Source of the DNA: Rhizobium sp. BT04
GTDB taxonomy: Bacteria; Pseudomonadota; Alphaproteobacteria; Rhizobiales; Rhizobiaceae
Length of the DNA: 64,000 bases
NCBI RefSeq assembly: GCF_030053135.1
Contig: NZ_CP125653.1
Coordinates: 124,001 to 188,000, forward strand
Reading direction: 5' to 3'
Made by a program: the position numbers and the translations under genes. The notes beneath the pieces were generated by a model, which was not told where the DNA came from, searched no databases, and saw only the letters and a list, made by a program, of their open reading frames with translations. Below are positions 60,895-64,000 of the stretch, one piece after another. Position 1 is the stretch's first letter, and every line of letters starts with the position of its first letter.

Positions 60895-60992
60895 GCTCTC
60901 TTGAGGCTTCTTCGGGTCGCGGCGGGATGGCCGCGGCCCCTCCCCTTATGACGATCGAATGTGCGACGAAGGCCGCTGGCGGAGACAGATTT

Positions 60993-62126
<1,134 letters not shown>

Positions 62127-62290
62127 ACCGACTTGGCGTCGTGTGGGCGGTTTGTCCTGCGAGCGGTTCGGGTCCGGGGCGAAATGGCACCCCTGGCAAT
62201 TATGGCTAGCGGGATTTGGCCGCCGCCTGGAAGCTGATCTTCCCCGACTAAGGGCGACGTGCTTGCGCTCTCTGACCACCTCTGCCGTGC

Positions 62291-64000
62291 CTAAGCCGAC
62301 TTTTCTTTAGGTTCTGGAATAGTCAGTTTGGCGATTGCTGCATCCAAATCCGCAGTTCCAGTTTGCTGCAGGATTGATGCCTGGTACGCATCGGTGAGAC
62401 GCGTTTTAATGCCCGCGTTTATGGCGTCACGAAGGTACGTAATACCATCACGACCTGCTTGCAGTTCTCCCTTGATAACGGCCTCAGCACTTCCAATTGC
62501 GAGCTCGGCAAGTTTTTTCGCAGAAACCTCGGCGATGTTCGCGGCAATTGATGTGTAGAGAACGCTTCCCACGCCATGGAATTGTTCGATTTCCTTCACG
62601 AGAACGGTGTTCGCATTCGGGGTTGCGGGCTGGACATAATTTCCCGTTCTACTACGGGTCTCACGTCGCCAAAGCATGTCCTTCGCCTCCGCCATTGTGA
62701 CATGATCTTGCAGCACAAGGATCACGGCCTTGACGCGCTGTCCTTCCTCGACGGGAACGAGGGTCGGGCTGCCTTTACGGGAGTTGCTTGAACGCGCGAA
62801 TTCGACCCGGAATGGTGTCAATATACCAGCCGACATTCGCCGAGCGATAACCTTTTCGAGTTCGGCACCTGGCTCGTTGATCAATGAGCCGTATGCGAGT
62901 ACTCCAATGGAGCGCTTCGGTTCTATCTCGGGAAGCTGTTTTGCGATCGCATCGACCAAAGAGTAACCTTTCCGGGTGTTCATGGTCCGTAAGGTCAAGT
63001 CCTGAAGGTGCGAACGTGACTTGATCCCCAAACACTCGGCGGCAACATCCAACAGACCCTTGTTGTCGTAGAGGGCAACGATCTTTTCGTATTCGCCCTT
63101 TACGATGTGGGTCCGGAATTCGGACAGCAGGGAGCCATAAATCTGTGCAGGGTCGATCTGAGCGGTTGCGATTTGATATTCACTCGCAAGAGCCGCGCTA
63201 TCCTTCGACTTCAGTCCGATTCGCTTGAGAGCCTGATCGATTTTTCGTTTCGTCGCGGATAATGCGTACTTCTCAGCATCGCTTGTCGCGAGTTTGAAGA
63301 CCCTTTGCTTCAGATCATTCAGGCGTTTGCTAGATTCCGCTTTGTCGAAGTGGCAAAGCGCAGCAAGTTCCTCGAATGGCTCCGGCAGCAACAGCAGGTT
63401 TTCAACCTCTGCCACTGCGAGTGCGTGGACATTTTTGGCTTTGAGGTGTTCGATCAGCCGGTCTTCACGACCATCGGCGTCAATCAACCCTGCGCAACCT
63501 AGACGGTGAAATGTCTTTTGTTTTTCCATGCTGGCGACCGCATGGATCACGCTATCGCAGCTGCCAATCGGCATTACGGTAAAGTCCTTGTAGACTGAGC
63601 GATAGATGGCAACGTCCAGACTTCCTGCATCACCCTCGGTGAAGAGCACAGGAAGCCGACTCCCCACGATGCGCGTGACAACCTCATCAGGGATTCCCGT
63701 GTCTGCGGGTATTTCCTCCAATTCCCACTGTTCACCCTGATCTCCGCTCTCGTAAGAATTGATAGCAAATTTTCGGGCCGTGGTTCGCGTCGCTGCGAAC
63801 TCAACATCGTGCGTCAGGTAAGCAAAGACACAATCATGTCGTGCAGCCTCGATTGCATCCCACATCTTCGCTAAGATCGATCGATTGATATGGAGTTCAG
63901 GCTCATCGATGAGGACAAGTGTATTCGGCCGTGCAAGCAGAGCTTGGCCGAGCATGTAGAAGATCGCACGCTCTCCATCGCTTAGCTCAGCGGCGTCGTA
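62291..64000 (-). CDS. AAA/ABC-type ATPase with DUF4435 (TOPRIM-like) and a C-terminal GGCT-like domain, partial
   Basis: Open to the window edge; 569 residues are visible and the N-terminus with Walker A is outside. Visible order: signature-like ELSDGERAIFYML, Walker B LVLIDEPELHIN and switch His in AYLTHD (the OLD/AAA_15-type ATPase end); then DUF4435, with VLFTEGDAGSLDVAIYR, GLIDADGR and VAEVENLLLL, the acidic residues of a TOPRIM-like nuclease; then, after a helical linker, IGVLAYGSLINEPG, TPFRVEFARSSNSRKGSPTL and WRRETRSR, which resemble the gamma-glutamylcyclotransferase-like fold (YGSL substrate loop). ATPase plus DUF4435 is the PARIS AriA-AriB pairing in anti-phage defence. The added third domain is unusual. 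Confidence 0.8.
   Translation of the reverse strand, partial: YDAAELSDGERAIFYMLGQALLARPNTLVLIDEPELHINRSILAKMWDAIEAARHDCVFAYLTHDVEFAATRTTARKFAINSYESGDQGEQWELEEIPADTGIPDEVVTRIVGSRLPVLFTEGDAGSLDVAIYRSVYKDFTVMPIGSCDSVIHAVASMEKQKTFHRLGCAGLIDADGREDRLIEHLKAKNVHALAVAEVENLLLLPEPFEELAALCHFDKAESSKRLNDLKQRVFKLATSDAEKYALSATKRKIDQALKRIGLKSKDSAALASEYQIATAQIDPAQIYGSLLSEFRTHIVKGEYEKIVALYDNKGLLDVAAECLGIKSRSHLQDLTLRTMNTRKGYSLVDAIAKQLPEIEPKRSIGVLAYGSLINEPGAELEKVIARRMSAGILTPFRVEFARSSNSRKGSPTLVPVEEGQRVKAVILVLQDHVTMAEAKDMLWRRETRSRTGNYVQPATPNANTVLVKEIEQFHGVGSVLYTSIAANIAEVSAKKLAELAIGSAEAVIKGELQAGRDGITYLRDAINAGIKTRLTDAYQASILQQTGTADLDAAIAKLTIPEPKEKSA

Follow-up and report, generated by a model that had tools for sequence, protein, structure and literature searches.

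We describe a gene at the end of a 64,000-nucleotide stretch of Rhizobium sp. BT04 DNA (hereafter the window; RefSeq assembly GCF_030053135.1, contig NZ_CP125653.1, positions 124,001 to 188,000; C7:124001-188000 of a 6.99-Mb genome in 7 contigs). With moderate confidence, we read its product as a single-chain abortive defense protein of the PARIS (phage anti-restriction-induced system) type with an accessory C-terminal, ChaC-like domain of the gamma-glutamylcyclotransferase (GGCT) fold. The anatomy, an AriAB core followed by a cyclotransferase-fold tail, is nearly certain. The PARIS core is itself known; what is new is that an intact protein of this type carries an additional domain, drawn from a family that has undergone fusion repeatedly and has no Pfam entry.

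The gene lies on the minus strand and its frame, from 62291 onward, runs past the window end at 64000. The N-terminus, which the first-pass annotation of the window had left to be recovered, was read from the genome upstream of the in-window part: the complete gene extends to 64513-64516 and encodes 741 amino acids (aa) counted from a TTG, or 740 aa from the ATG right after it.

The first-pass annotation recognized an ATPase joined to DUF4435, the core of PARIS, and model matching bears this out. Residues 4-532 fit the PADLOC single-gene AriAB model (E 1.7e-117, model positions 28-568 of 570), the runner-up being another AriAB model at just E 1.9e-10, and in Pfam both DUF4435 (34.1 bits against a cut-off of 27, residues 289-486) and AAA_21 score above cut-off. 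Among the NCBIfam matches listed (25 of 30 families) none was above cut-off, and a PDB sequence search with the AriB part alone found no relative up to E 10. The protein has the ABC-type ATPase of AriA with its Walker A, signature, Walker B and H-loop, and the DUF4435/TOPRIM effector of AriB with its Glu, DxD and Glu. In an alignment of seven AriAB-type proteins, the window protein counted among them, Lys34, Ser179-Glu182, Asp204-Glu207, Thr235-His236, Glu294, Asp346, Asp348 and Glu372 are invariant. Searched as a whole against phage records, the only phage that the protein matched was phi9805, in two records and limited to residues 22-363.

One-gene fusions of the AriA and AriB domains are reported in the accessible text of Rousset et al. 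(PMC9122126). As far as the available sections of Belukhina et al. (PMC12409363) describe it, AriA is an ATPase sensor of phage proteins such as Ocr and restrains the TOPRIM tRNase AriB until one of them is sensed, and the AriB studied in Escherichia coli cleaves host tRNA. By analogy, the core of the window protein quite probably acts like PARIS: on sensing a phage product, the AriA ATPase half would release the AriB nuclease half, which it otherwise keeps inactive, and AriB would then cut host tRNA and stop the infection.

The C-terminal region had been proposed to be GGCT-like, with a fold search set beforehand as the way in which it might instead prove a plain extension of DUF4435. That outcome did not appear; a plain extension is ruled out because the AriAB relatives stop before the tail and the tail has its own fold, and alignment and fold evidence agree on a cyclotransferase domain separate from DUF4435. 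The tail shows the GGCT beta-barrel fold of the GGCT-like superfamily together with the YGS substrate loop, here YGSL, and the catalytic Glu, here Glu619, both kept in 71/71 rows of the family alignment; the pairing of Tyr694 with the ChaC active-site Tyr is seen in relaxed alignments only. A viral structure library returned weak GGCT matches alone (E 1.0e-2 and 2.1e-2), and a PDB sequence search with the tail gave a single chance-level match (E 0.5) and, as a profile, none up to E 10. The tail falls outside the ChaC family PF04752: it matches no Pfam family up to E 10, and PF04752 does match two ChaC genes of the same genome (2.5e-47 and 3.0e-29).

Since its active-site residues are kept, the tail would most likely still bind gamma-glutamyl groups and cyclize them, with release of 5-oxoproline. 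Chemistry of this kind is suggested by the conserved Glu, the YGS loop and the fold, and the tail is rather more probably catalytic than a dead scaffold. It would then serve the nuclease in cis as an enzymatic accessory, not as an inert extension; as candidate roles, it might remove a tag from the nuclease, deplete glutathione, act as a sensor or exert restraint. In the narrower sense of a sensor, the tail would be a cyclotransferase fold that is catalytically dead or slow and that, by binding a gamma-glutamyl metabolite or protein derived from the phage or induced by infection, broadens what the ATPase half can detect. Defense proteins commonly have tails that replace or broaden sensing, and this domain is joined to unrelated effectors; AriA, in turn, is the sensing half of PARIS in the sections of PMC12409363 available. 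We nevertheless regard such a sensor as improbable, given that the catalytic-type Glu is kept in every row, beyond the strict need of a binding site, and that a free-standing form of the domain predominates.

A contig scan with a 4-sequence alignment yielded 76 tail loci, which span proteobacteria, Bacteroidetes, several other phyla and archaeal assemblies (L-numbers denote loci or regions from the genome scans). Most are free-standing proteins of ~200 aa; 11/76 have an extension of >150 aa, the frames of L069 and L077 running off their contigs. Neighboring genes were called by a simple choice of open reading frame (ORF). L091-L093 (short ORFs) were left out of neighbor sets, alignment and tree, as were the near copies L025 and L040, and L050 was left out of the alignment and tree.

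This family is repeatedly attached to, or encoded beside, defense nucleases. Tail homologs are fused to an Eco57I-type IIG restriction enzyme (L064) and to EVE-HNH (L077; Pfam EVE above and HNH below cut-off, with a PADLOC type IV restriction model). In L027, L030, L042 and L059 the partner is a 460-aa part with a GD...EVK pattern in 4/4, which by eye we take to be PD-(D/E)XK; its AlphaFold model from the 4 sequences (mean predicted local distance difference test score, pLDDT, 56.6) is too poor to test this. The fusion in L027, a Sphingobacteriales assembly, lies directly after an OLD-TOPRIM (GajA-type) gene and gajB (L027:6348-11992). The partners in L052 and L060 are weakly HEPN-like, that in L068 contains HExxH (by eye), and those in L069 and L018 were assigned to no family. 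The L018 row (L018:2890-10621) comprises a protein of 1228 aa that looks hydrolase-like by eye, one with a sub-threshold PIN-TPR-GreABC match and a 768-aa protein that ends in a tail homolog and whose 561-aa N-terminal part has no Pfam family match. The tail of this last protein is the nearest relative of the window's tail; the two are sisters on the tree (support 100) and their partners differ. A literature search made mostly without subscription papers found none on TPR-GreAB-C-PIN.

Operon neighbors of free-standing copies include REase_I (L078), REase_III (L086), HEC-06/Orf5 (L089), HNH (L088), PDC-S06 with a BrxC-like protein (L075) and weakly HEPN-like proteins (L036, L063); the HEPN readings in L036, L052, L060 and L063 combine matches below the Pfam cut-off with a motif seen by eye. 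A tally over 60 operon neighbors adds PglX and AbiEii (PADLOC) and Mrr and GmrSD types (Pfam); among the large partners scanned singly, 2/10 (L035, L057) were without a PADLOC match. Three genes away from the tail homolog of L067 is an ABC-3C gene (CTD6), whose relatives are found near L071 and L080. Fusion has to be gained or lost 7 times to account for its spread over the tree, and well-supported branches force at least 5 of these changes. One clade (99) unites L064, L065, L075, L078 and L086; model matches tie 4/5 of them to restriction- or defense-type genes, and the neighbor of L065 was read by eye as a helicase.

Two further observations concern the same family. After the tailed type IIG enzyme of L064 comes a HATPase-type gene (by reading) with a weak type II restriction match (L064:5918-12585). 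Genomes of the same order also encode, at L012:1510-2112 and L163:1408-2178, free-standing YGSL/WGSL proteins that are more distantly related and may form a second subfamily.

The unrelated nuclease partners suggest that the role of the tail is independent of the partner's target. Such independence would also suit self-immunity or restraint, the tail checking the tRNA-cutting half or reversing its modification like an enzymatic antitoxin fused to its toxin, and the diverse nuclease-type partners, including the weakly HEPN-like ones by fusion and by operon, count in its favor. Set against this, the HEPN matches stay below the Pfam cut-offs, the AriAB relatives found manage without a tail, and AriB is already restrained by AriA in PARIS, as the available part of PMC12409363 has it; we consider self-immunity unlikely. 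Extending the catalytic accessory role to the whole family is a tentative proposal: the tail could be an undescribed, partner-independent gamma-glutamyl cyclotransferase helper of PARIS, Gabija-type, type I/III/IIG restriction, PglX-type, EVE-HNH and HEPN/PIN-type proteins. In its boldest form, the tail would strip phage-placed gamma-glutamyl or similar amide tags from the host nuclease, a self-repair of the nuclease in cis; alternatively, and as boldly, firing of the nuclease would be followed by a second abortive arm, in which the tail depletes glutathione. We found no paper joining cyclotransferase or AIG2 with phage defense or conflict systems in a search made mostly without subscription papers, and the main text of a survey of bacteriophage exclusion (BREX; PMC12839542), in the part available, never mentions cyclotransferase, GGCT or AIG2.

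Several results weigh against a PARIS-type protein with a working accessory tail. At the residue level, the position of ChaC2 Glu74 is not conserved (residue 610 is Glu in 25/71 rows), and Foldseek gave no match at E 0.001 or better. The homologs with the same three-domain order that the first-pass annotation called for did not emerge: the AriAB-tail order was seen in one genome only. None of the 53 plasmid records matching the protein covers 80% of it. A scan of 394 Rhizobiaceae genomes, which scored two candidates per genome and may have missed some, gave AriAB-type matches of >380 residues in 7 others, all of them without the tail. AriAB also had no match at the 76 tail loci, in a test that sees close relatives only. 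The same 394 genomes hold one free tail and two short tail fragments, and most of the 78 that match do so weakly, by the ATPase alone; the tail is rare among sampled genomes, being found, besides its own genome, in 2/397 of the order (one weak), 1/385 of the class and 1/398 of the phylum (weak). The fusion could be a rare accident. We do not favor an assembly chimera joining AriAB and tail: the reading frame is unbroken, its two parts have similar G+C (53.0% and 53.4%), and L018 offers another fusion of the sister domain.

Also on the opposing side is the metabolic setting of some tail homologs, assigned from gene clusters, with Pfam identity for just two of the loci, L081 and L046. Near L033 (7-9 genes off), L054, L070, L072, L081 and L083 there is a molybdenum hydroxylase gene pair, and near L041, L046 and L050 there is PhyH. 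The pair accompanies 5/6 members of one tail clade (97; L054, L070, L072, L081, L083), pointing to a non-defense setting for part of the family. These neighbors, together with the unique three-domain order, would fit a passenger, that is, an accidental read-through joining of AriAB with an adjacent metabolic-type gene and no effect on defense. The fusions are, on the other hand, scattered on the tree with defense enzymes among the partners, in L018 the sister domain has another fusion partner, next to the gene with the sub-threshold PIN-TPR-GreABC match, and the active-site residues of the tail are intact; a passenger therefore seems to us an unlikely explanation.

Enrichment, finally, does not favor the defense reading. 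With PADLOC at E 1e-8, the operon neighbors (60 proteins) matched 136 families and far genes of the same loci 124, so that no enrichment among neighbors is shown and the link to defense is carried by the fusions and single operons. The far-gene set comprised 60 of 93 listed genes, mostly shorter ones having been dropped, and these may themselves be island genes, so the tally neither shows nor excludes enrichment. On the first-pass question whether neighbors of the homologs are defense genes, the fusions, single operons and the insertion site described below point toward defense; an excess over far genes is not shown. A consistent housekeeping context, which would have told against defense, was not seen; metabolic genes accompany part of the family.

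The gene occupies a variable site between its two neighbors, genes that read as a sugar ABC transporter and a D-threonine-aldolase-like enzyme, at window 62127-64000 and onward to L002:2777. The two right-flank genes were matched in 119/120 same-genus genomes, and both flanks are present in 14 of the 16 regions that we read. The site is nearly empty in 2/14, with 345 and 48 bases between flank matches. In L147 it holds a gene matching DarT (E 7.9e-9) and, next to it, one for a macrodomain protein resembling PDB 5m31 (E 4.2e-35), presumably a DarTG pair; the PDB search with the DarT-like protein alone was empty. L152 has a SIR2_2 protein (E 1.2e-25; ThsA in PDB, 8.1e-9), L161 a GmrSD_N protein (E 2.5e-24) and L146 a 1045-aa protein with an N-terminal nucleoside-phosphorylase match (E 1.5e-15). 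The cargo was not identified as defense in the other 8/14, which include cyclase-like genes in L156 and L160. These cargo families also occur elsewhere in the genomes (SIR2_2 in 10/14, GmrSD_N in 6/14, DarT in 2/5, phosphorylase in 5/5) and at the site once each. Because the content of the site varies and the G+C of the gene is lower than that of the flanking genes (62.3% and 63.5%), the window gene is an inserted gene, at a site with defense-type genes in at least 3/14 relatives by this site's count alone. The coordinates are given in Table 1.

Table 1. Positions of the gene, its domains and key residues, and the left flank of the insertion site (window numbering)
Feature	Position	Strand	Remark
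AriAB-cyclotransferase gene, in-window part	62291..64000	-	residues 173-741 and stop
AriA-type ABC ATPase, C-terminal half	63767..64000	-	whole ATPase ~residues 1-250
Walker A Lys34	64415-64417 (outside window)	-	invariant 7/7
ABC signature-like motif LSDGER, residues 178-183	63968..63985	-	SDGE invariant 7/7
Walker B Asp204-Glu205-Pro206-Glu207	63896..63907	-	invariant 7/7
AriB-type DUF4435/TOPRIM region	62915..63652	-	Pfam residues 289-486; AriAB model match stops at 532
TOPRIM Glu294 (TEGDAGSLD)	63635..63637	-	invariant 7/7
TOPRIM DxD Asp346 and Asp348 (LIDADGR)	63473..63481	-	invariant 7/7
GGCT/ChaC-fold domain, residues 537-735	62312..62908	-	few residues separate it from the AriAB end
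YGSL loop, residues 542-545	62882..62893	-	71/71 rows, partly by construction (in search pattern)
Glu619 of RRE motif, equivalent of ChaC2 Glu83	62660..62662	-	71/71 rows, outside search patterns
Tyr694 of DGIxYL, candidate equivalent of ChaC active-site Tyr	62435..62437	-	71/71 rows, inside search pattern
Sugar-type ABC transporter ATPase gene, left flank of insertion site	60927..62126	+	name by reading

Because relatives of the tail stand beside, or are fused to, several unrelated DNA- and RNA-cutting defense proteins, the domain may be an overlooked helper of bacterial immunity. If it works in defense, a family of small proteins that no Pfam model matches would become a recognizable marker as well as a helper of immunity, and gamma-glutamyl chemistry would join a field known, in our view, mainly for nucleases, NADases and membrane effectors. 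Glu619 offers one clear mutational handle, shared by the PARIS protein and by free-standing homologs beside restriction genes. The gene further draws attention to a site at which Rhizobium-like genomes exchange unrelated defense genes for one another.

Among known systems, phages carry GGCT genes with amidoligases, for which the available parts of PMC11945000 and PMC11318856 suggest a role in peptidoglycan modification or host metabolism. The likeness lies in the presence of GGCT-type proteins in phage genomes, whereas a phage-borne form of the tail family was looked for and rejected, with no confirmed relative in viral contigs (47 pattern stretches, 0 confirmed) or phage records; a link between those modules and defense nucleases is speculation on our part. 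From ChaC-type, glutathione-specific gamma-glutamylcyclotransferases (PF04752) the tail differs in lacking a Pfam match, in its 17% identity to ChaC2 and in the unconserved Glu74 position, and its family differs in occurring also in archaeal assemblies and in fusions to restriction-type enzymes. Gabija (GajA OLD-TOPRIM and GajB helicase) shares the ATPase-TOPRIM logic and, in L027, a tail homolog directly behind its two genes, a row that is possibly Gabija with a third component; the window protein, in contrast, fits AriAB far better than the listed GajA model (E 0.0012), and its neighbors, by their reading a transporter ATPase and an aldolase-like enzyme, include no helicase. The closest likeness is to single-gene AriAB of PARIS, with intact ATPase and TOPRIM residues and a near full-length model match, from which the window protein differs by ~200 extra residues, absent from the relatives found, that form the GGCT/ChaC-fold domain.
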